Below, piece after piece: positions 1 to 16,742 of a DNA stretch of 64,000 bases. Below the pieces are notes generated by a model. That model saw only the letters and a program-made list of their open reading frames with translations. It was not told the origin of the DNA and did no database searches. Source of the DNA: an uncultured Methanobrevibacter sp. (GTDB lineage Archaea; Methanobacteriota; Methanobacteria; Methanobacteriales; Methanobacteriaceae); NCBI RefSeq assembly GCF_946184425.1, contig NZ_CAMHFP010000003.1:24406-88405 (forward strand), in the 5' to 3' direction. Each line of letters opens with the position of its first letter. Position 1 is the stretch's first letter. Position numbers and translations under genes: made by a program.

Positions 1-909
1 AGAAATACTAAATTTATATTGCCTAATCATTTTTATCAAATGATTTATGTATTGCAAAAATATAATTTAGAATTATTTGAAAAGTTATTAACTTCAGATA
101 ATGTATTTTCTTTGGTTCTAATTATCAAATGCTTGTCCTTTAATCAAATAAATTCATTTTTCATAAATCATGAAATTAAGGAAAAAACATTACTTTGTTT
201 TTTAATGAAGTTTTTAAGAGCATCTTCGGATGATATTGAGAATTATCGTGACATGGTTGTAGAAATGTGTATTTGCTTATATAAATTGAATAAAACTCTC
301 TTCAATGGATTAATGGATATTTTTATGTATAATGAATTTTTCAATGAAGTAATTGGAGTGATGTTTTGCAAACTATCTAAAGATAATCTTAACATTTTAA
401 TTGAATCAATTCCATTGAATGATAATGTTGAATGGATTAATGTTAGGACAAAAATGTTAAATGAATGCAGTGAATGTGAGAATTCTGAATATATTAATGA
501 ATTAATTTATACTAAATGGAATAATCACCTTTCGAATTCGTTTAATGAGAAAAATAAGGGTTTGAATATTCTTTGCACTGATTTTTGTAATTTTATCATT
601 GCTTATTATTTCCATAACTATGATAATGATAAGTTATTGGATTCCATGAAAGAGTTATTTGTTAAGCTTAAAAACTTGGATAGTGAATGGTCATATAATA
701 TTTTACATCATAGAAATAAATTTTTCGTATATTACTCTAAATTATTTATTTTCAGTGTCATTTATGAATTTAATAAGTTGAATGATGATGAAATTAAAGC
801 GTATTATAATGAATTTTATGATGAGTATGTTTTGTTTAAAAAATTTTTAGATAATAAAAAAGAAGACTTTTTAGATAGGTTTGAAGAGAATTTATTGGGT
901 AAATTATAG
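1..909 (+). CDS. hypothetical helical protein, 5'-truncated by window edge
   Basis: Frame is open to base 1; the listed TTG start at 19 is probably not the true start. Leu/Asn-rich, apparently all-alpha; same strand and directly upstream of an ApeA-like gene. Confidence 0.6.
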   Translation, partial: RNTKFILPNHFYQMIYVLQKYNLELFEKLLTSDNVFSLVLIIKCLSFNQINSFFINHEIKEKTLLCFLMKFLRASSDDIENYRDMVVEMCICLYKLNKTLFNGLMDIFMYNEFFNEVIGVMFCKLSKDNLNILIESIPLNDNVEWINVRTKMLNECSECENSEYINELIYTKWNNHLSNSFNEKNKGLNILCTDFCNFIIAYYFHNYDNDKLLDSMKELFVKLKNLDSEWSYNILHHRNKFFVYYSKLFIFSVIYEFNKLNDDEIKAYYNEFYDEYVLFKKFLDNKKEDFLDRFEENLLGKL

Positions 910-951
910 TTTTACAAATATATTTAATAATTTAATTGATTTAAATCATTT

Positions 952-2433
952 ATGGGGATATTTATTATGAATACAAATTTTATTGGATGGGAACTGTTGG
1001 AAAAACCTATTAACATATGTTTATTAGGAGGAGAGTATCTTTTAGAAAATAACATTAATTTATTCAATATAATATTTAAGAGAAATGAAAATTATGAGTT
1101 AACCGCTATCCTAAATGGTTTTATTGATGAAAATATTGGGCGTAAAGTCAATATTTTTTTTAAATCTATTGAGAATAATAAAATTGTCATCAAATCATTA
1201 AATGGGCATGATATTACATTCCAATATAATGTTAGAGATTATAGTTATCATCAGGTTCATTATGCTGTGAAATTAGATATTCTGTATTTGAGAATTGGTG
1301 AAATTGATGAAGAAAAAGTCGAATGGAAATCTAGATGGTATATTAATGGATCCGATTTAATTTTACTAAGGAATCCAATATATACTATAGAAAAGGGTTC
1401 TAATTTTAAAAGGTTAAATGATGTTGGAGAGTTAATTATTAATACAGATTCGGAATTTAATCATTTTGTTTCCAGTTATTTTGTTGTTAAACCAGACACT
1501 CTAAATCAGTTCATTGTATCAAAAATTTCAAATAAATTCAATCCTCAATGGTCTAAAAAGATGAGTATTGATTTTTTTAGAGAATTCGGATTTCACAGTA
1601 AAGAACAAATTAATTTAATTGAAAATGTTTTATCTTTTGCTTTTGGAAGGTCATTAATTGATATTGGGGAAAGTCATTTTGATAAAAATGGTAGTTTAAT
1701 TTATTATAAAGCATATTCTCCAAGAATTTCCCATACCATTAATTTAAAATATATCTGCGATATGGGACCTAATTGTCCATTATTTTATACTTTTTTTGAC
1801 ATGAGACATGAAAATGATTTAGCGTTTATAATTGACAAATGTGAAGAAAGCAATGTTAATTATTATAATGTATTTAATTACTTAAGGGAATCTTTTAATT
1901 TGCCTCCTTTGTCTGAAATTGTTTTAATTGCTGGAGCATTGGAATTTTTAGCAGAAAATTGGTTACAAAATAATTCTAGTGGTAAACATGAGCACATGCC
2001 TCAAGAAGATTTTGAAAATCTAATTTCTGATGAATTAAACAGTTGTCATGAGAAATTTGAAGAATATGGAGTTAAAAGAATTGATGATTTAATGGATAAT
2101 ATTAAAGGAGCATATAAAAAACAAGGTTCCAAAAAATTAGATTTATTTTTTGATGAGTTAGGTATTACTCTGGGGAAAATTGAAGAGCCTGCAATACAGT
2201 ATAGGCATACTCCGGCTCATGGTAGAATAATGAATTTAAAAATGGCTCGAAAATTTTCGTTAAGGACATTGTCCTACAGGTTGTTATTGAATAGATGTAT
2301 ATTGAAATCTTTAAATTTTGAAGGATACTATTGGGATTTTTTCTCTAAATCTTATAAGAATCTAAGTGAATCTATAGATAAAGAAGATTTTAATAAAGTT
2401 CGAGATTCTGTGAAATTTATAAAAGATAATTAG
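952..2433 (+). CDS. ApeA-like HEPN-domain protein (putative anti-phage RNase)
   Basis: 493 aa; C-terminal helical domain with an R-X4-H HEPN motif (RHTPAH, codons at 2203-2220); N-terminal beta-rich region resembling ApeA NTD. Likely true start at 967 (MNTNFIGWELL). Confidence 0.55.
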   Translation: MGIFIMNTNFIGWELLEKPINICLLGGEYLLENNINLFNIIFKRNENYELTAILNGFIDENIGRKVNIFFKSIENNKIVIKSLNGHDITFQYNVRDYSYHQVHYAVKLDILYLRIGEIDEEKVEWKSRWYINGSDLILLRNPIYTIEKGSNFKRLNDVGELIINTDSEFNHFVSSYFVVKPDTLNQFIVSKISNKFNPQWSKKMSIDFFREFGFHSKEQINLIENVLSFAFGRSLIDIGESHFDKNGSLIYYKAYSPRISHTINLKYICDMGPNCPLFYTFFDMRHENDLAFIIDKCEESNVNYYNVFNYLRESFNLPPLSEIVLIAGALEFLAENWLQNNSSGKHEHMPQEDFENLISDELNSCHEKFEEYGVKRIDDLMDNIKGAYKKQGSKKLDLFFDELGITLGKIEEPAIQYRHTPAHGRIMNLKMARKFSLRTLSYRLLLNRCILKSLNFEGYYWDFFSKSYKNLSESIDKEDFNKVRDSVKFIKDN

Positions 2434-2553
2434 TAATTATTCGTCACCTTTATAATCGGGATAATTTTCATTTTTAAATTGGTTGTTAAAATTACCAAAA
2501 TTCTTTTGAGGCATAATACTAATTGTGAATATATGTAAATATTATTAAGATTA

Positions 2554-3357
2554 TTATTCATACGGAATATAAGTCAAATTAAAACTTGAATTATCTTTAA
2601 TCATTCTATAGACTGGGATAGCTCTTATTTCGCAAAGTTTTTTGATATAATATGCATCTTTGTCATCAATTTTATATCCTAAATAAACGGATTTCGGTGT
2701 TAAAAATTTAATATGGGGTTTATTATCATACCATATAATCTTAAATAGTTGTTTTGGATTTTTAAGCATAATTATTCTCCATTCTTGTTCATATTCCCAT
2801 TCTAGAGATTTATTGGTAAATGTTTCGATAGATGATTTTCCAATATCTGCTTTAGCAATTATTTTAGGCAAAATTTCTTTATTTCTTTCTTCTGTGACAT
2901 AAGCTATTGGGAAAAAAATTTCTTTTAGTAAATCATCATCTTTAAAATCATACTCCACACAAATTCCTTTATGTTCGCCCCCATAATGGTGCCACATGGG
3001 TGTTATATCGTTTTTTTCACTGAAACAAGCAATATAAACTCGATTTTTCATATCTTGATTTGCTTCATAAAAAAGGCTTTTAATACCTTTTTTGTCCAAA
3101 TTAGGGTTTCTTATAGGGTTATTATAAAATTCATCTAAATCATATAACAAATCACCTTCGAAAGGGTCATTTAAATCTTTTATTTCTCGCAAATACATTA
3201 AATCATCTAAAATTAATGTTTTTGCATGTTTAACACGTGTATATTGAAAAATTTTTGTTAAGTGCTGATTTTTACAGTCAATCCATTCTTTTTCATTATC
3301 CGCTTCAATTTTAAAATAATTATCAAAAAATTCATTTCTCCATTTTTTTTCTTCCAT
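2554..3357 (-). CDS. DUF2971 family protein (abortive-infection associated)
   Basis: Motifs DPFEGDL, CFSEKND..PMWHHYG..HKGICVEYD and EWEYEQEWRI are characteristic of DUF2971. Confidence 0.8.
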   Translation of the reverse strand: MEEKKWRNEFFDNYFKIEADNEKEWIDCKNQHLTKIFQYTRVKHAKTLILDDLMYLREIKDLNDPFEGDLLYDLDEFYNNPIRNPNLDKKGIKSLFYEANQDMKNRVYIACFSEKNDITPMWHHYGGEHKGICVEYDFKDDDLLKEIFFPIAYVTEERNKEILPKIIAKADIGKSSIETFTNKSLEWEYEQEWRIIMLKNPKQLFKIIWYDNKPHIKFLTPKSVYLGYKIDDKDAYYIKKLCEIRAIPVYRMIKDNSSFNLTYIPYE

Positions 3358-3429
3358 AGTACTATATTTATTTCACTATTAATAAATAACATAATGTATT
3401 TATTATCTTGAGATAAAAAATTTTATCAT

Positions 3430-4524
3430 ATGTCTTATAATGAATTCATTAAGGAAATTGAAATTAATAATTATGATGATTTAGTTAAGAGTATCCAAGG
3501 AAAATCTAAGAAATGTGATGATCTTCGTGATAAATTTATATTTAGAGGTGTTGAAGATAGTGAGTTTCAGTTAATTCCTTCTGCTCTTCGTGGAGATAAT
3601 ATTAATGATTTTGTTGATGAATCATTTGATATTACCTTATGGATTAATTCAGAAAATGTGGATGAATTTAATTGTATCACTGGAATTAATTTAGAGTATA
3701 GTGAAGGATTATTATATCCTGTTAGATTTAATAAATATCTTGAAGCATTAGATCATGATATTGTCAGTCAAGTTCATTCTTTTGGAGAAATACAGTTTAG
3801 AAAAGAACTCAATGCATTAATGAATTTTTTAAATTATACAGATAAGTCAGGATTAAAAATTCCAATCAAGCAGGAAACACGTGAATTAATCGAACATGAT
3901 ATTCGAAAAAAATTTGATGGAAATTCTCATTGGCCAGATTCTGATTTTTATGAGGTAATATCATTAGCTCAACATTATGGCATACCAACAAGAGCTCTAG
4001 ATTGGTCTTATGATTATAGGGTAGCATTATATTTCGCCGTTAAAAATATATTGGCTGATGATTATTCAATTAATAATACTCCAGATAATGCAGTATTATG
4101 GGCATTTAATTATAAGTATTTTGAAGTTAATCCTATGTATGATACTGCAACACCATTTCCAGTTCAATATTATCGGCCCGAATATAATTCAAATCCAAAT
4201 TTAAATGCTCAAAAAGGTTTGTTTACATTCATTGTTGATGATTTAGATAATATTTCAAAACAGCCATTTGATGAATTTGTTGTAGATAATTTATCTGGAA
4301 AATTGAATGATTTTATTGGATTTAATGGATCAAGCAGAGTTCATTTGCCAGAAGGTGAAAAAGCATTTTATAAATTCATAATTCCTGAAGATATAAAACC
4401 TGAGATTCTTGATGAATTGTATCATGAGGGTTATTCTGAAGAATATTTGTTTCCGGGTTATGGTGGTGTTAAACAATTTGTTGAAAATAGGATTAAATTG
4501 GATAAATTACTTAATAATCTATGA
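3430..4524 (+). CDS. FRG domain-containing protein
   Basis: FRGVEDSEFQLIPSALR and LAQHYGIPTRALDWSYDYRVALYFAV match the FRG domain signature. Confidence 0.85.
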   Translation: MSYNEFIKEIEINNYDDLVKSIQGKSKKCDDLRDKFIFRGVEDSEFQLIPSALRGDNINDFVDESFDITLWINSENVDEFNCITGINLEYSEGLLYPVRFNKYLEALDHDIVSQVHSFGEIQFRKELNALMNFLNYTDKSGLKIPIKQETRELIEHDIRKKFDGNSHWPDSDFYEVISLAQHYGIPTRALDWSYDYRVALYFAVKNILADDYSINNTPDNAVLWAFNYKYFEVNPMYDTATPFPVQYYRPEYNSNPNLNAQKGLFTFIVDDLDNISKQPFDEFVVDNLSGKLNDFIGFNGSSRVHLPEGEKAFYKFIIPEDIKPEILDELYHEGYSEEYLFPGYGGVKQFVENRIKLDKLLNNL

Positions 4525-4689
4525 TGTTGCAATAGGGTAACTGAAATTTAATGCACTCATGTACGGAGGTATTTTTGACTACAAACTGCTATAATAAGTT
4601 AACCATCCTTATATTTAGTATTTCCACTAAAACCTAATCCCTTAAGAATTTCAAAATCATCTGGGGATGAGTATTCTCCAGATATGTAT

Positions 4690-5721
4690 TTATTTTTTAC
4701 CTTCCAGCCGTTTTATGGATTTAATCAGGTTATCAAAATCAGATTCATAATTTCTATCCTGATCTATTCTGAATTCCTTATACTCATTAATCGCATGGGC
4801 TTTTGCTTCAACAGCTGAAACTTTACCCTTTCCTTCCAGTAGCGGCAGTTGGCTTAATTCAAGATATCCGTAAAGCAATGTTTTCCAGTCTTTCATGAAT
4901 GTTGGTTTTTGGGAATTTGCCCTTGTCTCGGCCAATGTTAAAAAACCGTCAACCAGTGTATTCAGTGAATCCAATTCCATTTCGTTTAAGTAGTTTTTTG
5001 AAATTACCACATCTGCCTGCAGGATTTTTCCATGAGGAGCATCTTCCCATGTTGTAAGTCCCATGTTAACTTTAGTTTTGTCGCTGCGGGATTTTATGAT
5101 TTCAGCGGCAGTCTGGCCGGTTATTGCAAAGAGTAGCATGTTCTGTACTGTGGCAAAGAAGTCTTTTGTTTCGTCGGCATCCAGATTGTAGTCGGCGCTT
5201 GTTGCATATAAATCAGTGATTTTCTGATTGAATCTTCTCTCTGATGCACGTATTTCACGGATTCTTGAAAGCAAATGGTCAAAGTAATCTTTCCCGAATC
5301 TTGAGCCTTTTTTTAATAATTCATCATCCAGTGCAAAACCTTTTACAATATACTCCTTAAGCACGCTTGTCGCCCATCTGCGAAAGTGTGTTGCCTGTTT
5401 GCTGTTTACACGATAGCCGACTGAGATTATGGCATCAAGGTTGTATAATATTGGCTGTGTTTTCGCATCGGGATTTATAATAACGATTCCACTATTAGTG
5501 GAATCGTTCGGATTGAAAGTGACTTCTGATTTTACCAACTCTCCGGACTCAAAAATATTAGTTAAATGTTTGCTTATGGTTTTAATATTTTTACCAAACA
5601 ATTCAGCCATTGTTTTTTGTGTAGTCCACATTGTGTCATTTTCAGAATCAATAATTACCTTTATGGCCACTGCTCCGTCTTCACTGGTGTATAATAATGT
5701 TTTTACAATTTCATTATTCAT
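4690..5721 (-). CDS. RhuM family protein
   Basis: MWTTQKTMAELFGKNIKTISKHLTNIFESGEL...ISVGYRVNSKQATHFRRWATSVLKEYIVKGFALDDELLK is the typical RhuM N-terminal region. Confidence 0.85.
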   Translation of the reverse strand: MNNEIVKTLLYTSEDGAVAIKVIIDSENDTMWTTQKTMAELFGKNIKTISKHLTNIFESGELVKSEVTFNPNDSTNSGIVIINPDAKTQPILYNLDAIISVGYRVNSKQATHFRRWATSVLKEYIVKGFALDDELLKKGSRFGKDYFDHLLSRIREIRASERRFNQKITDLYATSADYNLDADETKDFFATVQNMLLFAITGQTAAEIIKSRSDKTKVNMGLTTWEDAPHGKILQADVVISKNYLNEMELDSLNTLVDGFLTLAETRANSQKPTFMKDWKTLLYGYLELSQLPLLEGKGKVSAVEAKAHAINEYKEFRIDQDRNYESDFDNLIKSIKRLEGKK

Positions 5722-5843
5722 ATTATAAGCTCCTGCATCTAAAATTAATATAATAATAAGTAGGTTTATAATGTATATAAAGAATTAGAGAGACCATTTG
5801 GTAAGTAATATTTAGCATATCTTTTATTAAAAATCATGATGAT

Positions 5844-6080
5844 ATGATAGAGTTATTAGGTGCAGTTAAATCAATTTTAGAAAATTATTTTGAGGATTGT
5901 GAACCTCATATTCGAATTTCTCATAATCCTGAAACTGGTTCTGAAAAATTAATTATAGTGATTAAAATAACTAATGATGATTCAAATGATTTTATTAAGG
6001 ATTTAATGGCGATTAACTCAAAAATAAGGCCTTTAAAAAAGAAATTTAATTTAATTGGTAGTTTTTTAATTAATGTGTAA
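5844..6080 (+). CDS. small protein upstream of a HEPN pseudogene
   Basis: 78 aa; followed within 6 nt by a decayed HEPN reading frame; resembles the C-terminal half of the 135-aa protein at 40448-40855. Confidence 0.55.
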   Translation: MIELLGAVKSILENYFEDCEPHIRISHNPETGSEKLIIVIKITNDDSNDFIKDLMAINSKIRPLKKKFNLIGSFLINV

Positions 6081-6085
6081 TCATT

Positions 6086-6497
6086 ATGACTCATTTTGAT
6101 TGGAAAGGTTAGTATAATTTGGCTAAAAAATTATCTAAAAATATTGATGACGAAGCTTCAATTCGTTCAGCTATTAGTAGATGCTATTATTCTGCTTTTG
6201 TTCAGCTAGATATTATTTGGTTGAAGTAAAACATGAATAACATTTATTGGACACTGTAGGGGCGCACACGAATGTATATTCTTTCTTACAAAAATCAGAT
6301 AATTTTAATGAAATGAATTGGGGGAAGTATTAGAAACTTTGTTTGAAAAGAGGTATTGTGCAGATTATGATTGGCGAAAACACTGATTTAGAATTTTTTT
6401 TATCAATGATTTATCTATTGTTGAAACATTAGTTGAAAAAGCATTTTTGAATATGAATGTATTAAACAACAATCCTTCTGATTTTAGAATTCCATAA
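6086..6497 (+). pseudogene. decayed HEPN-domain protein
   Basis: Reads MTHFDWKG*YNLAKKLSKNIDDEASIRSAISRCYYSAFVQLDIIWLK* then frameshifted GAHTNVYSFLQKSDNFNEMNWG.EVLETLFEKRYCADYDW; stops and frameshifts interrupt a HEPN (PF05168-like) pattern. Confidence 0.7.
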
Positions 6498-6573
6498 ATA
6501 TTTTAATTATTTGTTTGTATTTAATAAATGCAAATTTTATCTATGTTTTATAGTATATAATTTCTTAAATTAA

Positions 6574-7230
6574 TTATATTCTAATAAACAATCTCCAAAA
6601 ATCTTCAATCTCTTCCTCATCAAAAACAATAGGATTATTCTCCATACTTTCACCGATTGTAGCTAGTTTAACAATTTCTGCAATATCTTCCCTTTTAACT
6701 CCAAAATTTCTTAAGTTAATCTTACTTTCTGAAATACTACCCAACCAATTCATGATATCATCTATATTATTTCCATCTCATGCATCCAAAAACAGTTCCT
6801 TTTCACTCACATATTTTCAGTTTCTTTTTATCACTTCAAATAATGTTATTGCTACTGCGAAACAATGGTTTATCCCATACATCATTGTCAGGGGTTATGA
6901 TATTGAGTGTGATGCGCTTGCACGTGGTTTGAAAATGCAAGTCCTGCAAAAAATAATCCATAATCACCTGCTTCTATACTCCAGATTATCCAAATCACTT
7001 AAGCCAATGGAGGATACTTTATGATACTTCTCATTGAATTTCTGACCAGTGTTCGAATGTATCTATCTGATGGTTTTGACCAGGTAAGATTCCATTGCAG
7101 GGGATAAAGCGTCAAGATTTGTTGATAATATCATATTCTTATCCATTGTGCTGGTCAGTTCAGCTACTAACCATGATTCCTTTGGATATATGTATTCTGA
7201 ACCTAAATTTAAATTCCATTCATTTATAAT
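6574..7230 (-). pseudogene. decayed iron-containing alcohol dehydrogenase
   Basis: Minus-strand fragments ...TNLDALSPAMES..., KPRASASHSIS*PLTMMYGINHCFAVAITLFEVIK and LRNFGVKREDIAEIVKLATIGESMENNPIVFDEEEIEDFWR follow Fe-ADH order but with stops and frameshifts. Confidence 0.7.
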
Positions 7231-7231
7231 T

Positions 7232-8215
7232 CTATTCATAGATTATATTTTTAAAACTTTCAATTAATTCCTCTGAAATATTATTTTTATGAATTTCATA
7301 AAATCTTCTTAAAATTACTTCTCCATCATTTCCATGTAATTGATTATTTCGTATTACACTATCAACTAATAAATCTATTTGATTTTCATCAAAATCTTCA
7401 AAATAAGGTTCAATATATCTTAATAACTTGTTACATTTATCATAATTCCAATTTAATCGGGGATTGTTTAATTTAGACAAAATGATATTTGTCATTGCAT
7501 AATGGTAATAATTAACAATTTCTTCTTGCATTTGGTTAATATTGCGAATATGCTTAGATTGAATTTTATTTAAAAATCCATAAGATTCTGTTCCATCAAT
7601 AGATAATGGAATTATCATACAACCTCTTTGCAAAGCCATTCCAACTTCCTGACTACAATAATCAGATTTTTTAAAATCATCACTTAATAATGCTATAAAT
7701 ATATCTACTTGTTTTAATTGATTAAATATTTCCTCAGCCCATTCACGAGAAATATTAATGTCTTCATGGGCTAGAAAACCATCAAGTCCAATTTCTTGCA
7801 ATGCATCTTTAATTTGTGCACAATATTCTTTATTTTGGTTTGAATAACTTATAAATGCAATTTTGTTTATTTCTTTTTTGTTATTTGTTGAAAAATCATA
7901 TTGGGCATATAAATCATCGATTTTCCTTGAACTTATGCCATATTTTCTAAATAAATATCGAATCATTTGTATTGCTTCTTCTTCATTATCGTGTAATGCT
8001 TCGGATATTACTCCAATAACATTGTATTCATAATCATCATCACCGAAATATTGACTTCTTGTTAATCTATCATATTCATTAAGTAAATAATCAAATTCAA
8101 AACTTTCTAAAATTGAATACCAATTAATTTGGTTTTCAACAGTTTCATTTTTAAGTAATAATTCACTTATTTCCATTGCTAGTATTTTTAATTCATCAGG
8201 CATTGTCTTCACCAT
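7232..8215 (-). CDS. TIR-domain protein, third gene of a Gabija-like operon
   Basis: IAFISYSNQNKEYCAQIKDALQEIGLDGFLAHEDI...SDDFKKSDYCSQEVGMALQRG..IIPLSID: TIR with candidate catalytic Glu; ATG immediately abuts the TAA of the GajB-like gene (TAAATG). Confidence 0.85.
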   Translation of the reverse strand: MVKTMPDELKILAMEISELLLKNETVENQINWYSILESFEFDYLLNEYDRLTRSQYFGDDDYEYNVIGVISEALHDNEEEAIQMIRYLFRKYGISSRKIDDLYAQYDFSTNNKKEINKIAFISYSNQNKEYCAQIKDALQEIGLDGFLAHEDINISREWAEEIFNQLKQVDIFIALLSDDFKKSDYCSQEVGMALQRGCMIIPLSIDGTESYGFLNKIQSKHIRNINQMQEEIVNYYHYAMTNIILSKLNNPRLNWNYDKCNKLLRYIEPYFEDFDENQIDLLVDSVIRNNQLHGNDGEVILRRFYEIHKNNISEELIESFKNIIYE

Positions 8216-9925
8216 TTATTTGTCATAAAATATAGATTTCCACATTCCATAATCTTTTTTCGGAACCACTAAATATAAAAGCTTTTTAGCTCTTGATAAT
8301 GCTACATAAATCACTCTTAATTCTTGGTTTTTATCTAAATTAAGATTATTTGGAATTATTTCACTATATTTCTCATTGTGCTCGGTTTCTTCTTTTAAAA
8401 GCAATAGTGTAGCATCAAAAGAACCCCCTTTTACACTATGCACAGTACCAATATTGTAATTTAAATTATTTTTTGAATCTTCATTAAATAACAAGTCAAA
8501 AGTAACTTCTTTTGTATAATAATCTGTTTTGTACATTTTACCATGTTTTACTTCACTTAATCTAAAATAATCTTTAAATCTATAATTCACTTCATTAATC
8601 CAAGAATTAATGGTCTGATTATTTTCAATTGGTGGAAAAACATTTATGAAATTATAAACATTTAAGCGATGATTTTGAAAACCTTGAATTTTAATTTCTT
8701 CAAATATGTCTAGGTTAGTAATCTTGTTATTATTATATTTAAGTTTAAGGTATTCTTTTTCCATTATCTGAAAACCTTCTAAATGATTTTTATTATTCCA
8801 GTGATACAAACCTTCGAGAATATTCACAGTCCGGCTTTTACTATCTGAATAAAATTCAAAAAGATATTGAACATCTTTGATTTTCAAGGACTTTTTATAT
8901 TTATTCACTTCTTTATTTCCCCTAAATAGTATTGAAACATTTTTTTCATCAAGTCTGATTCCATTTTTAATACATTCTTCTTCAAATTCATCTATTACAT
9001 GTTTATAATTATTTTTGTAAGGTATAATTTTTGGGGGTATATCTGTATCATGAGGACATTTTGAATAAATGCTTTCTATACTCGATAGTCTCGAGAAAAA
9101 GTCACAGATTTTTTGAGAGCTTCTAAAATTATAATCAAATATTATTGAATTATCTTTCCATTTTTCATATTTTTCATTGAATAATTCAGGTTTTCCTCCT
9201 TTCCATTCATATATTGACTGTTCTGGATCACCCACTAAAATAAGATTATTCAAACCATTCTCAACTAATAAATCAATTATCCTCATCTGAATATCTGAAG
9301 TATCTTGTGCTTCATCAATAATCATGTGAGGAAATCTAATGGACAATGCTTTTGCAATATGAGGATATTGTTCTAATACCCTCATTGCATGATAATTTGC
9401 ATCATTTTGAGTTGCAAATCCTTCTCTAGTTAACCTATATTTCATTTGTTTAACTGTATCATAATTTAAGTCTTTCTTTTTATAGTTTACTTCACCATCA
9501 ATTAAAAACTCCACCCTATCAAAATAATTTTCAATATAATCTCCGGAAGACCAATGACTAATGGGGTCTCCAACTAATATTGGTCTTTTTTCACAATTCA
9601 TTACTAAATGTCCATAAGGTAAAAATAGGTATTTGTTAAAAAAACTATCAAGTGTTCCAATAAAATGTGTATAATTGATTTCTAAATTTCTGTCTTTTTT
9701 CTCAAGATTTTCTTTTATTTCGTCAGCTGCAATGTTAGTGAATGAAAGAACAGCTATTCCAGATTTTTTATTATTCCAATTTTTAATAAATCTATAAACT
9801 CTTTCTGTAACTGCAGCAGTTTTTCCACTTCCAGGACATGCTTTTACAACAAATTTTCCAGTTTTATTTAAATCTAAAAATTTTTCTTGCATATCTGTCC
9901 ATGAATGTTTAGTTGTTTTAGTCAT
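8216..9925 (-). CDS. gajB: UvrD/Rep-type helicase, GajB-like
   Basis: Walker A ACPGSGKTAAV, IDEAQDTSDIQ, VGDPEQSIYEWKGG, IYVALSRAKK; directly downstream of an OLD-family nuclease gene. Confidence 0.85.
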   Translation of the reverse strand: MTKTTKHSWTDMQEKFLDLNKTGKFVVKACPGSGKTAAVTERVYRFIKNWNNKKSGIAVLSFTNIAADEIKENLEKKDRNLEINYTHFIGTLDSFFNKYLFLPYGHLVMNCEKRPILVGDPISHWSSGDYIENYFDRVEFLIDGEVNYKKKDLNYDTVKQMKYRLTREGFATQNDANYHAMRVLEQYPHIAKALSIRFPHMIIDEAQDTSDIQMRIIDLLVENGLNNLILVGDPEQSIYEWKGGKPELFNEKYEKWKDNSIIFDYNFRSSQKICDFFSRLSSIESIYSKCPHDTDIPPKIIPYKNNYKHVIDEFEEECIKNGIRLDEKNVSILFRGNKEVNKYKKSLKIKDVQYLFEFYSDSKSRTVNILEGLYHWNNKNHLEGFQIMEKEYLKLKYNNNKITNLDIFEEIKIQGFQNHRLNVYNFINVFPPIENNQTINSWINEVNYRFKDYFRLSEVKHGKMYKTDYYTKEVTFDLLFNEDSKNNLNYNIGTVHSVKGGSFDATLLLLKEETEHNEKYSEIIPNNLNLDKNQELRVIYVALSRAKKLLYLVVPKKDYGMWKSIFYDK

Positions 9926-9933
9926 AAAAACAC

Positions 9934-11655
9934 CTATTTTTTACAAACAAACTCTAAAGCGGTATCAATGTAGTCAGGTACAGTATAATTAATATCTTTA
10001 TCTTTATTTAATTCATTTGATAAGATCCAAGCAATTCTGGACTTTTTAATGCTCTTTTTTGATTCATTCATAATGGCACATATTTCTTCATTACTATTGT
10101 TAAATACATTTTTGAATATACTCGGATGTATTTTATTAAATGTTTTACGAATAAATGATTTATCAGGGTTGCAGATTAATAAATCATATTCAAATGTTTT
10201 TTCAGCACCACAAACTTTTAAATTTTTATTTTCTTTTTCTTCTAACATTTTAAAAGTATTAGATTCTGCATCATCAAGTTCTTTTCTATCTTTATCAGTT
10301 ATTATTGCTCCTTTGAATATTAATTCATTTTCTTCATCGAATAATGGGATAAAATGTTTAAAACTCACACCATTTAACATTACAACTTCAACACCTTTAT
10401 TTTCTAAATCATAACCTAATTTTTCAGCAAAAATGGGGACTAATAAAGCTTCTGATATTCCTTCAACAAAAATAACTCGTTTACTGAATAATAATTGGGA
10501 TTTGGTAACATCTAAAAACTTTTGTAAATATTCTTTATTTTCTTCATCAAAGTTCAATGATTTGAAATCAGCACTGACTACATTTTCATTTTCATAATCT
10601 CTTTGCAATATGATTAAGGAGTCTAAATCTGCTTTTGCGGTTATTGTTGGTGAATGTGATGTTATGAATATTTGAAAACTTTTCTTATCATTCAATTCTT
10701 TATTTAATGTATTCAAATAACTGAAAAATAGATTCTGTAATTGTGGCTGCAGGTGTGCTTCAGGTTCTTCAATTAACAATGATAGGTATAATGAATCATC
10801 ACTTTTTGATAAATCTTCTAATCGAGTTAGTAAAATTGCAATGTATATTAAATTGTTATGTCCTAAACCGTTTTGATGTAAATCTAAGTATTTTTCATTT
10901 GTTTCATCTTTTGTAAGTGGAATTTTGATTTTTAAATTTTTGCTGAGTTCTTCATAATCTTGATCAAGAGGCAGTATGTTTAGTGTAGCATCTTCATCAA
11001 AAGTAATTTTGTCTAAATGTTTTGCAATGTATGTTTTCTTGACTTCTTCAACAAAACCTGAAAATTCACTTTCTGCAATGTTGTTACTAAATTCTTCAAC
11101 CATAGTGTTACGATTGTAATCCTCGGATATATTTTTTTCATCAAGGCCAATAACCAAATCGCCCAATTGGTTATAACGTCCTGGTCTTAAGTATCGCTCA
11201 GCGTCTCTTAGGGCACCAAGATAAACTTGAATAAATGAATGAAAAACTTCCGATGGAATATTTGCTCCTTCGTTTTTACCTCCCCAAACATCACTATGGA
11301 TTCTTTCATATTTGTTATATTGTCTTAAACTGAATTTGAAGTGTAAATCTAATGAATCATTTTCAGCATCATATAATTCAATAAAATAACCAATTTCTTC
11401 ATCAACATCTTTTTTAAATGATAAATCAAATTCTATGGGTTTTAAATTTTTATCGGTTATTGAAATGTGAAAATCATTTTTAGTTACTCTTAATCCATCT
11501 TGGTCTCGGTATCCTAAACAGATTCTTAAAGCATCAATAATTGTTGTTTTTCCAGCATTATTTTCTCCAATTAAAATATTAATTCCTTTAGAAAAATTTA
11601 ATTCAATGTCTTTTATTGACCTAAAATTTCTTATTTTTAATTCAGTTAAATACAT
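9934..11655 (-). CDS. gajA: OLD-family ATP-dependent endonuclease (ABC ATPase + TOPRIM), GajA-like
   Basis: ELKIRNFRSIKDIELNF, Walker A GENNAGKTT, LLIEEPEAHLQPQ, TOPRIM VIFVEGISEALL and ITDKDR. Confidence 0.88.
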   Translation of the reverse strand: MYLTELKIRNFRSIKDIELNFSKGINILIGENNAGKTTIIDALRICLGYRDQDGLRVTKNDFHISITDKNLKPIEFDLSFKKDVDEEIGYFIELYDAENDSLDLHFKFSLRQYNKYERIHSDVWGGKNEGANIPSEVFHSFIQVYLGALRDAERYLRPGRYNQLGDLVIGLDEKNISEDYNRNTMVEEFSNNIAESEFSGFVEEVKKTYIAKHLDKITFDEDATLNILPLDQDYEELSKNLKIKIPLTKDETNEKYLDLHQNGLGHNNLIYIAILLTRLEDLSKSDDSLYLSLLIEEPEAHLQPQLQNLFFSYLNTLNKELNDKKSFQIFITSHSPTITAKADLDSLIILQRDYENENVVSADFKSLNFDEENKEYLQKFLDVTKSQLLFSKRVIFVEGISEALLVPIFAEKLGYDLENKGVEVVMLNGVSFKHFIPLFDEENELIFKGAIITDKDRKELDDAESNTFKMLEEKENKNLKVCGAEKTFEYDLLICNPDKSFIRKTFNKIHPSIFKNVFNNSNEEICAIMNESKKSIKKSRIAWILSNELNKDKDINYTVPDYIDTALEFVCKK

Positions 11656-11772
11656 GAAATCACCAACTATTATGAATATATGATTTGGAGATATTTAAAT
11701 TTCAACAGAGCATCTGAAAAGTAATGGTGCGATAAGTTAGGGTCTATTTCCCATTTAAATCAGTGAAATTTT

Positions 11773-11803
11773 ATTTCAATCCCGTTATGATGGGATTTTT
11801 CCC
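11773..11803. repeat. solitary CRISPR-repeat-like sequence (relic?)
   Basis: ATTTCAATCCCGTTATGATGGGATTTTTCC resembles remembered Methanobacteriales repeats (ATTTCAATCCCATTTTGGTCTGATTTTAAC), about 23/30 by eye; no array. Confidence 0.3.
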
Positions 11804-11811
11804 ATTTAAAA

Positions 11812-11835
11812 TCATAATCAAGTGATTGATTATGA
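11812..11835. repeat. perfect inverted repeat upstream of GajA-like operon
   Basis: TCATAATCAA-GTGA-TTGATTATGA, 10-bp arms. Confidence 0.6.
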
Positions 11836-12058
11836 AGTTGCATGATATTATGTACAAATAAATATAAAGCATTCATTATGTTTATGTGCTATGGAAAGAA
11901 TGAAAAAGGTTAACGTTAGTGAACGATTATAATCTTTGTAATGCAAGCCAATATGTAGAATGTAATGTTAAATTTAATTTAGCTACTATTGAAAGTAAAT
12001 TCAAAGGAATAATCAATTAATATATGGTTATTTAGTAATAACCTTGCAGTAATGGCAC

Positions 12059-13852
12059 TGTCAAAAATTGTCATGATTTTGCTTTGTTTTTTTAGTGAAT
12101 TGTGGGTTTTTAGTTGAGATTGTAAACAACATTTCTTTGTGTCCAGCGGGCTTTTTGTAGTCTTATCCATCGAATTAATCCTTTTTTTGTTCTAAATGTT
12201 CTTTTTAGATTTCTTGGAAGTGTTATTTTGAAGTATCCTTCAATTTTGTTGTTTGTTCGTGGTATTTGTGGGTTTTTATGGTATTCTGTTGTTTTGTTGA
12301 ATTTCTTTTTCAGGGTTTTTAAAAAATTCTGTGTGTTTTTGTCGAATTGGTTTATTTTGTTGTAAATTGTGTTGAATCTTTGTTTTGCTGCTTTTTCGGT
12401 GTCTGTATCATAAATTGCTCTTATTCTTTCAGTTATGCTTTCTTGGTCTTGTAGTTCTTTTCTTTTTTCGGATAAGTCTCTTCTGAGTTGTCTTGTTGTT
12501 TTTCTAATTTTTTCCTGGTTTTAATTCTGTTTTGGCGTGTTATATCTTTTATGCTTCTTCTTTTTTCATTTATTCCTTTACTTTTGTTTTTTATTCTCAG
12601 TATTCGTTCTTCATTTTTGTCTATTTTTGTTTCTAGGCTTTTTATTCTTCTTTGGATTTTGTTGATTATTTTGTAGGATTTGTCATGATGATTTTTGATT
12701 ATGTGGAATATGCAGAGTTGTTGTTTCATGCAAATTCTTTCAATTATTGGTGGATATGTCATGTGGCCGTCTGTTATTAGTATTTTTTTAGGTAATCCTT
12801 CTAAGCTGTATTTTAAGAAGATTTCCATGAATTCATTGTCGAAATCTTCTTGAGGAATTATCTGATCATTTATTATTAAATTGGTTACTGCATCTATTAT
12901 GGCTAATCTAACCATATTTATGCCGTTTTCGCATAAATATTCTTCATCGTAGTGATATATTCAGCTAGGTTCAATATTTGTTTCTTTTATGATTTTTTGA
13001 AGGTTTTCCTCTTTTTGTGTGATGAAGAATTCAGAATATTTAGATTCGTGATAATATGCCGTTTGACGAGGTAATTTTATTCCATTTTCAAGTTGAATTA
13101 GTTCTGCCTTTTTTTGGTAAGATAAATAAGCAATTGACTCATATTCTAATGATTTTTCACAAATGGCTCGCGTATAATTAGAATATCTTTTAATAAAATT
13201 TTCCAAGCTGGTTGTGTGTGTTTTCCCACATTCAGGACAGATATATTGTTTTTTACGTATATTCGACCATTTGTTTGGTTTTGCAGGCCTAGAACCATTG
13301 CTGTTCATCGTGCTATCGCAATTTGGACATAATGGCCTATCATACTCATAATATACAATTTCCGTGTAACAATCACAATAATATTCTCTAAAAAAGTTCA
13401 AATCATCAGGATCAATTAAATTACACACATTTAACCGATCACAATCCAAAAAATACAAAGGTTTATTTAAAATGTCAACAAAATTATTACTTGTAAAGGG
13501 TTTTATAGAGCGCATATAATTATAATATACCCTTTACATTATTTATACACTTCTATTTTTAATATTAGTCATTTTAAACACTTGAATTTATATTAACTTG
13601 ATATTCATCAAGTTATAAATCTATTAAAAACCAAATAGGAAGTTAAATTAAAAATAAATAATGATGATTAAAACAAATTTTTTTACAAAATTATTTAATT
13701 TAATCAACCGTATATTCCATTAAAATCAATTTAAAAATCAAATAATAATTAGTTTTTAATATAACTAATTTATAATTTTATAAAATGTATTTAACGTGAT
13801 AATATATTTTAAAGATTAAATTAAAGTGATTTTATCATGACAATTTTTGACA
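12059..13852 (-). mobile_element. decayed insertion sequence with 19-bp perfect terminal inverted repeats
   Basis: TGTCAAAAATTGTCATGAT at 12059-12077 and its exact reverse complement ATCATGACAATTTTTGACA at 13834-13852, flanking a broken transposase. Confidence 0.8.
12130..13515 (-). pseudogene. transposase with N-terminal zinc ribbons, inactivated
   Basis: Continuous in-frame similarity across a TGA (...NIEPS*IYHYDEEYLCENGIN..., ORFs 12961-13515 and 12433-12915), then a frameshift to LRRDLSEKRKELQDQESITERI...TNNKIEGYFKITLPRNLKRTFRTKKGLIRWI. Confidence 0.8.
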
Positions 13853-13923
13853 AAGCCTATCAATGTTTTTCCTATTGATAATGAGTGCTATTGTATCTTT
13901 TGTGGGTAATTCAGCTGTGTTGC

Positions 13924-14037
13924 TCATTTTAAATTCTCACAAATTTCTTCAATTCTATCTAAAATTTCCCACATTCTATCCCACAGTTTCTTTGGGATTG
14001 CAACATACATTTTTCCATTTATTTCCTTTTTTCTCAT
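13924..14037 (-). CDS. putative 37-aa microprotein
   Basis: MRKKEINGKMYVAIPKKLWDRMWEILDRIEEICENLK; its stop overlaps the ATG of a second small frame that runs into the IS end. Confidence 0.3.
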   Translation of the reverse strand: MRKKEINGKMYVAIPKKLWDRMWEILDRIEEICENLK

Positions 14038-14440
14038 GATTTTTCCTCTCCTGTTTTTCCATTCATGGGAGGATTATAAATTCGACAGTCTAAGCTCATG
14101 GGGTCAGGAATTTTTTAAAAAATAAATAACATGGCAAAATCAATTTTCCGTCTTTTAGCCAATATTTAGAATAAGATAAGTTTTGCTTTTTTGGATTTGA
14201 CAATCTTTATATATCCCTTAAAATAAACTAGTTATTGGGTTAAGTTTTGGAAAATATTAATTTTTAACATAGTTTCGCGACATGTCTAATTATTTTTATT
14301 TTTCTCACTGCCCATGGGATTATTCTAAAAATATCTTAATAGCTCGTCATTCAATTAAGTATTTTTTTTATAATCCTTTTTTCATGATCTGATTTTTACT
14401 ATTTCTTTTCTAGTATTTTACCTCTCTAAATTGATTTTCA

Positions 14441-14515
14441 GGCCTCACCAAAAAAAGTTGTCTCACCGTGAAAAGTTGATTTCACTTCGTAAAATTTACT
14501 TCAATGGTGGAGGCC
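14441..14515. ncRNA. candidate structured RNA element
   Basis: Nested inverted repeats: GGCCTCACCA (14441-14450) with TGGTGGAGGCC (14505-14515), one bulge, enclosing GTGAAA (14468-14473)/TTTCAC (14480-14485), in gene-free DNA. Confidence 0.35.
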
Positions 14516-15929
14516 AGTTGATAGTTTGTCAATTTGGATATATAAACATTTCTATTAGTATTTGTTGTTAAAATGTTCATTTTTTTGAGAAAAAATTGTG
14601 TCCATAAGCCTTGTATTTTTGGAAATTTTGCTAAACATTAAAACATAAATTGCCTATAAAAAAAGTCAAATGTATAAATCGGAAATGCTTAAGTAAGCCT
14701 TAAATTAATGTTTCAGGCCTAATAAAGCTTTATTATCCTTTTTATTATATTGTTTATATAAATGAAATAATAATGCCAGTATAGGCATTCCAAAAATTTT
14801 ATCAATTGCAAAAAATAAATTCTGTATCAGAGTTTTAGTGGTCCGAATCGATAAGTATCGGAACTTTTTTATTAGTTTTATACGAATTGTTCGTAAATAT
14901 TTGATTAATTGTTGCTTTTTTAATTAAAATTTTTCCTAAGTTAATGATTTTTTGATATATTTGAGGTGATGGTAGAGTGGATTGGTGGTCCACACTAATT
15001 AATTCAATCAATTTGTCAAATAATGTCACAAATTAAAATTCCACTTCATCGAAGTTCGTTTTTTAGAATCCTCACCTTGAAAACTGTTAACCTAGCTTTG
15101 ATTCCTATCAATCGTCAATCAGAAAAATGCTTGTTATATTCTTAACCAATATAGGTAGGAATATAAGTGACTGTTAAAAAAATAATGCAGTCAAGAAGCA
15201 TTTCTACCATCAACTCACCTTCCTTAGGAGGATAAAATATTTTGGATATTCGCTTTATCATTCTATGACTCCTAATTTTATATAGAATTTTTATCTGTTC
15301 CAGAGTACTATCATTTATTACTTTTATTATATAAAGTATTACTTTTTATTTTTTTACAAAATTTTATATATTAAAAAAAGGCAAGTAGTATTATTGGATA
15401 TTCGTTGGAATTCATTTTATGGTTCCATTTTTAATAATGGTTTAGAGTTATTTTTAACTCTATCCTATTATTAAGTTCTTATTTTATTAGAAAATTAGTT
15501 TTATACTGTAGTTTTAGTGCTTGAAATTGATAAGTATCAGAACTTTTTTATAAGTTTTATACGAACAGTTTTATGGTGATTTTATTGATTTAGGGTAAAT
15601 TTTTTAAAATTCGTCTTATTTTTTTAACATTTGAATTTTAATATGTATATCCTGGTCCGGTTAGATGAAATTGCTATTAAATAGAGTTTAACATAGTATC
15701 TGAAGAGTATCGCAACTTTTTTACATGCTTTTTTGATTTTTCCTTCAGCAAAAATTTTGTTCAGTTTTTGGGAATTCTTTAATTTTTCACGGTTAATTTT
15801 CTTATTTTTGTTCATGTTTTATGAACTTTATTTCACTAAATAGTAAGTTTTAAATAAGTAAAAACTATATTTCCAATCAAGCAGGTGAAAAAAATAGACT
15901 GTGGTAAAAAATCTAGAGAGGAAAAATTA

Positions 15930-16742
15930 ATGAAAAAAAGTCGAATGATTTTGATTATTATTTTAATTGCTATAATTATGGCTCTGGGCATTCTGTCTTT
16001 TGGACCGGGTGCTTCTCAAAGAATTGATATTGTTGGTTCCACATCAGTTCAGCCTGTAGCTGAAAAGCTTGTAGAGGAGTATAAAATCAGTCATCCTGAT
16101 GTAAAAATAAATGTTCAGGGCGGAGGATCCAGTTTGGGCATCAAAACTGTTCATGATGGAATTGCTGATATAGGAATGAGTTCCAAGGAATTGGACAGCA
16201 GTGGAAAAGAGGGCATTTCTGAATATGAAATTGGAAGAGATGGCATTGTAGTTGCCGTAAATGTTAAAAACAATGTCTCTGATTTAACAAAAAGTCAGCT
16301 GAAAGATATTTTTTCCGGAAAAATTACCAACTGGAGAGAAGTTGGCGGTAATGATGGTGAAATCCACATTGTATGTCGTGAAGCCGGATCAGGTACATTG
16401 AATGCATTTGAAGATATTGTAATGGGTGATACTAAGATTAAAAGAGATGCAATCGTTCAAAGTTCTACAGAGGCTGTAAAACAGTCTGTCAAACAGGATG
16501 AAAATGCAATAGGCTTTGTTTCATTTGCACATGTTTCTGATGATGTAAAGACTTTAAATATTGGAGGAGTAACTCCGGGAAATGAAACTATTGCAGACGG
16601 TTCATATGAACTGCAAAGACCTTTTTTATTCCTGGTTAAGGGAAATCCTTCAGGCGAGCTGAAAAAATTCATCGACTGGACGGGCGGAAGTGAAGCCCAA
16701 AAGATTATTGAGGAAGAAAAAATTATCAAATCAACAGAATGA
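15930..16742 (+). CDS. pstS: phosphate ABC transporter substrate-binding protein
   Basis: [19 protein letters not shown]...[11 protein letters not shown]...[12 protein letters not shown]; first gene of a pst cluster; start chosen at internal ATG (ORF opens at 15885). Confidence 0.92.

Follow-up and report, generated by a model that had tools for sequence, protein, structure and literature searches.

Organization of the Gabija locus

The window, which is the entire 64,000-nucleotide stretch of DNA analyzed here from an uncultured, methane-producing Methanobrevibacter sp., carries three co-oriented minus-strand genes, gajA, gajB and a TIR gene, all of which proved open and intact in an ORF check. 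The features of the locus, in the order of transcription, are the following.

11657..11703, minus strand: gajA leader, with a TATA-like ATTTAAATATC followed by a GGTGAT Shine-Dalgarno-like motif, both read by eye
9934..11655, minus strand: gajA, OLD-family ATPase with a TOPRIM nuclease domain, 573 aa, class 2 OLD
8216..9925, minus strand: gajB, UvrD-like SF1 helicase, 569 aa
7232..8215 as called (probable 7232-8203), minus strand: AbiJ_NTD5-TIR-tail gene, 327 aa as called, Pfam TIR_2 at 1.2e-17 and AbiJ_NTD5

Both core proteins match their PADLOC profiles over essentially the whole length (GajA at 8.1e-130, GajB at 4.7e-149). GajA contains the Pfam domains AAA_15 (5.7e-33) and OLD-like_TOPRIM (PF20469, 1.6e-14), and its TOPRIM acidic residues E398, D454 and D456 are invariant in the alignment with its relatives, as are its Walker B and H-loop residues. 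GajB contains UvrD-helicase (2.7e-36) and UvrD_C (4.1e-10), and its Walker A GSGKT and DExQD motifs are likewise invariant among the aligned relatives. With an OLD ATPase-TOPRIM protein and a UvrD-like SF1 helicase encoded by adjacent genes in the same orientation, separated by 8 nt, the locus is a Gabija system, a common kind of antiviral defense, and the profiles and motifs bear out the earlier note, which had recognized this pair as canonical GajAB. The locus shares with canonical Gabija both core genes, their order, their spacing and their intact motifs; however, canonical Gabija consists of two genes (PMC10781630; PMC10568477), whereas here a third gene, encoding a TIR protein, follows. 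Gabija is further characterized by a GajAB assembly of 4:4 stoichiometry that acts as an anti-phage nuclease.

The leader at 11657..11703 is a candidate for the single promoter region of a gajA-gajB-TIR operon. A scan for sigma-70 promoters gave the same result as shuffled sequences and a terminator search found none, both being uninformative for an archaeon. An Rfam search of positions 1-16000 of the window found no RNA.

At the gajB/TIR boundary the sequence reads ...GACAAATAAATGGTGAAGACAATGCCT, with the TAA stop of gajB directly abutting an ATG, exactly as first noticed (TAAATG), although the TIR gene probably starts further in. A second ATG (Met5), located four codons inside the called ORF, is preceded at 5 nt by a GGTGA Shine-Dalgarno-like motif recognized by eye, comparable motifs being visible before gajA (GGTGAT) and gajB (AGGTG), and it forms an invariant column in the alignment of the TIR protein with five archaeal relatives. 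Because of this motif and the invariant Met column, Met5 is probably the true start, which would place the gene at 7232-8203 with a gap of about 12 nt after the gajB stop. The intact ORFs and tight spacing agree with the operon-like, co-oriented arrangement described before. The GC content of the three genes is 0.25-0.27, compared with 0.32 for the window and 0.37 for the neighboring RhuM and pst genes; this common low GC is consistent with, but not proof of, an arrival together or from similar sources.

The surroundings resemble a defense island, with candidate defense genes at 2554-5721 encoding DUF2971 (PDC-S31), FRG-domain (PDC-S15) and RhuM (PDC-S05) proteins. Directly behind the TIR gene, at 6600-7230 on the minus strand, the reading frames are broken and, judged by eye, resemble the remains of a gene of the iron-containing alcohol dehydrogenase type (DALSPAMESYLVK; NPIVFDEEEIED). 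Upstream of gajA, two short minus-strand ORFs at 12433-13515 appear by eye to be pieces of one broken transposase.

Domain architecture of the third protein

The product of the third gene consists of three parts.

7946..8131, minus strand: AbiJ_NTD5 domain, putative sensor/gating module, residues 29-90 (PF18865, hmmscan)
7544..7855, minus strand: TIR domain, residues 121-224 (TIR_2, hmmscan), with candidate catalytic Glu E190 in SDYCSQEVG
7232..7543, minus strand: C-terminal helical tail, about residues 225-327, defined from alignments; a related tail occurs in solo TIR proteins

The earlier note had placed about 125 aa of helical sequence before the TIR domain but had missed that this segment holds a recognized domain, AbiJ_NTD5, which scores 29.9 bits against a gathering cut-off of 26.7 (32.0 bits in the closest full-length homologue, see below). 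The TIR domain itself scores 65 bits against a cut-off of 28 (PF13676). The C-terminal HEPN domain of AbiJ (Abi_C, PF14355) has no match in this protein, the TIR domain standing in its place, and ThsB_TIR (PF08937) remains below its cut-off (18.8 versus 21.2).

The candidate catalytic glutamate was rightly singled out: E190 is invariant in all seven aligned family members, some of which are TIR proteins encoded on plasmids of Klebsiella, Rhodococcus, Pseudarthrobacter, Paenarthrobacter and Megaira. Solved TIR structures are matched by the family profile, 7uwg and 8g83 (the NAD+ hydrolase AbTIR) being two of them, and the SDYCSQE motif aligns with the ...DWTNYE... motif of chain 7uwg. The protein thus has a TIR domain with a catalytic-type Glu, as is characteristic of TIR NADase effectors, and by these sequence features it is predicted to be an NADase.

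The helical tail was also described before, and comparison extends it: the Methanobrevibacter homologue retains it and solo TIR proteins of bacteria retain it in part, with an alignment motif, ft..q....N.QlyG, that is partly common to the bacterial plasmid proteins. The tail of the Megaira relative matches the C-terminus of PD-T7-3 (1.1e-6). A structure prediction for the TIR protein was poor (mean pLDDT 59), although the last ~60 residues are helical at pLDDT 75-88. Its Foldseek matches mixed TIR domains with unrelated folds; the model gives no information on gating and was set aside.

Homologues of the TIR protein

The nearest full-length homologue, from Methanobrevibacter RUG020 (G033; L026/L056), is 41% identical and has the same three parts. 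Its gene follows a DUF5655 gene at a distance of about 220 nt; Gabija is absent from the neighborhood, and no GajB was detected in that genome at E < 1e-20. Solo plasmid TIR proteins of Klebsiella, Rhodococcus, Pseudarthrobacter and Megaira, which have an FVAHEDI-type motif, share the TIR subtype with its catalytic QEVG motif and a related helical tail, but they have other N-termini (AbiJ_NTD5 was absent in the two scanned) and are not adjacent to Gabija. A scan of genome contigs, based on a two-sequence alignment, returned only one homologue, a solo one; the patterns of the scan were narrow and one of its two was of low information, so that for bacteria it is a weak negative. In viral contigs, neither the full TIR protein nor AbiJ_NTD5 had any relative in the scans. 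The genome from which the window comes (G000) has tandem TIR gene pairs at other sites, C33:20738-21993 and C1:10640-11815 (L001, L002, L004, L005), and similarly closely spaced TIR matches are present in several congeneric genomes.

Distribution of TIR genes at Gabija loci

We scored by script 41 distinct GajAB loci, taken from plasmids, phages, IMG/VR and the genomes of the order; in 39 of them the sequence extends at least 1 kb beyond gajB. A TIR gene lies within 5 kb in one of the 41, that of the window, and no other of these loci has a TIR or AbiJ_NTD5 gene nearby. Behind the gajB whose product is closest to ours (48% identity, G021), a different gene follows at 106 nt. Across 151 genomes of the order, GajB is present in nine and a full-length homologue of the TIR protein in two, with both in this genome alone, a co-occurrence that is not significant (Fisher p = 0.12). 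The same third gene was therefore not encountered in independent GajAB loci of this sample, i.e., no recurrent three-gene system was found. The earlier note had presented the locus as a kind of system, Gabija with a built-in TIR gene, to be given up if the TIR gene adjoined GajAB only in this genome or was equally common alone. That is largely what the co-occurrence check returned, with one locus, one coinciding genome, and a full-length homologue and bacterial TIR-plus-tail relatives that were solo where examined; as a kind of system, the proposal is not supported in this sample. For bacteria the sample consists of plasmids, phages, IMG/VR entries and a single narrow scan of genomes, and the counts are compatible with a rare bacterial recurrence, below about 8% of Gabija loci (rule of three, these collections).

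Two Gabija-like loci from IMG/VR have a further gene closely behind gajB, at 14 nt (L177) and 21 nt (L179). The first (L177:10199-10960) encodes a PD-(D/E)XK nuclease (PF12705), another possible occupant of a third-gene slot.

Genomic context of AbiJ_NTD5

Fourteen AbiJ_NTD5 loci, including the window, were examined; in two of them (L027 and L202) the domain score falls narrowly short of the Pfam cut-off. The majority are solo or stand behind unrelated genes (L026, L027, L029, L201-L205, L207, L208), and four of the 14 are located at the 3' end of a recognizable defense operon. Besides the window, these are a provirus-like region (L028:5570-8133) in which an MkoA-like, UPF1-type helicase gene (Mokosh-like) is followed after 5 nt by an AbiJ_NTD5-HEPN gene, a PifA-like KAP NTPase operon (L030), and a restriction-modification operon (dcm/Vsr/REase; L206). 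The first of these has the same helicase-then-NTD5-effector layout as the window with a different effector. AbiJ proteins from three plasmid loci (L198-L200), of which two are encoded behind restriction-modification genes, were considered as further examples and left out of the tally, as hmmscan found no PF18865 in them.

AbiJ-NTD5-TIR fusions were already recorded by Anantharaman et al. 2013 (PMC3710099), who also proposed that AbiJ N-terminal domains recognize invaders and hold back the toxin domain, and who noted the coupling of AbiJ proteins with restriction-modification operons. Our protein has the domain order of those fusions, AbiJ_NTD5 then TIR, but differs in being archaeal and in that its gene stands third in a Gabija operon. 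It shares its N-terminal domain with the AbiJ_NTD5-HEPN (Abi_C) proteins of the AbiJ family, a version present in congeneric archaea (G046, G049, G088, G102), but carries a TIR effector rather than a HEPN RNase. The domain combination is thus known, since such fusions have been recorded, and its placement in a Gabija operon was not found described in the open-licence literature; no report of a Gabija-TIR operon was found in open-licence PubMed Central.

Proposed role of the TIR protein

We favor, at about even confidence, a reading in which the third gene encodes a modular, self-sensing AbiJ_NTD5-TIR abortive effector that is co-transcribed with Gabija as a backup. An AbiJ_NTD5-TIR gene would have been appended to the 3' end of a canonical gajAB pair, with GajAB providing a first-line, DNA-targeting defense and the TIR protein acting as an autonomous abortive effector. 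The NTD5 module, the helical tail or both would keep the TIR domain inactive and respond to an invader cue; once released, the TIR domain would oligomerize and degrade or cyclize NAD+, halting the cell if a virus passes GajAB. Co-transcription would then provide co-expression and layered defense with no obligatory complex. The intact domains and active-site motifs argue for such a backup, as do the modular distribution of the protein (a homologue without Gabija; NTD5 joined to TIR or to HEPN), the minority of AbiJ_NTD5 genes that close other defense operons, the 2013 proposal on AbiJ N-terminal domains, and the common low GC of the three genes, whereas the occurrence of the arrangement in one genome only, in which selection for the linkage is not measurable, argues against it.

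The same rarity suggests that the linkage may be incidental, a solo AbiJ_NTD5-TIR gene having landed behind gajB in a defense island and sharing its transcription with no functional relation, and we regard this as the main alternative, a real though less than even possibility. It would fit an arrangement unique among the GajAB loci scored, the insignificant genome co-occurrence, the solo homologue, and the setting, a mobile defense-type island where transposase-like fragments accompany the PDC-S05/RhuM, FRG and DUF2971 genes. It accounts less well for three intact genes of shared low GC joined at ~12-nt spacing with a well-formed Shine-Dalgarno-like site, so tidy a junction being less expected from a fresh random insertion.

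The earlier note had offered two roles for the TIR protein, licensing by GajAB or a second line of response. A second-line abortive effector is plausible, whereas licensing has found no comparative support, and we consider it unlikely that the locus is a true three-component system in which GajAB, by binding or cleaving invader DNA or by nucleotide depletion, licenses the TIR protein through NTD5 for an abortive response. The operon position and the similar layout behind the MkoA-like helicase speak for such licensing, and work cited in PMC10822852 calls Gabija abortive through nucleotide depletion. On the other hand, NTD5-TIR and NTD5-HEPN proteins occur without GajAB and do not recur with Gabija in the loci scored, and P. 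aeruginosa PA14 Gabija has been reported as non-abortive, without any such partner (PMC12407980). We are equally doubtful of the wider form of this idea, in which the protein is a genuine third Gabija component whose NTD5 would sense that GajAB is engaged, or that a viral anti-Gabija protein has blocked it, and would switch on NAD+ depletion, so making a non-abortive DNA-targeting system abortive, with AbiJ_NTD5 generally a plug-in that links various defense NTPases to exchangeable toxic effectors, either HEPN or TIR. Signaling as in Thoeris, where the TIR protein would make a cyclic nucleotide for another effector, is highly improbable: the weak similarity of the TIR domain to ThsB profiles stays below the cut-off, and the adjacent genes include neither ThsA nor a caspase nor any other partner that would sense a ligand.

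Because the relatives of the TIR protein are mostly found away from Gabija, it has the look of an add-on backup weapon rather than a standard Gabija part. If the linkage is incidental, the locus would be an ordinary defense-island juxtaposition. If the coupling is functional, it would show, in compact form, how an archaeon can layer its immunity: DNA cleavage would come first, backed by an added suicide module that has its sensor domain in common with HEPN-type Abi proteins. The neighborhoods of AbiJ_NTD5, which include restriction-modification, a Mokosh-like helicase, a PifA-like NTPase and Gabija, make the 2013 idea of a sensor and restraint for swappable toxins directly testable.
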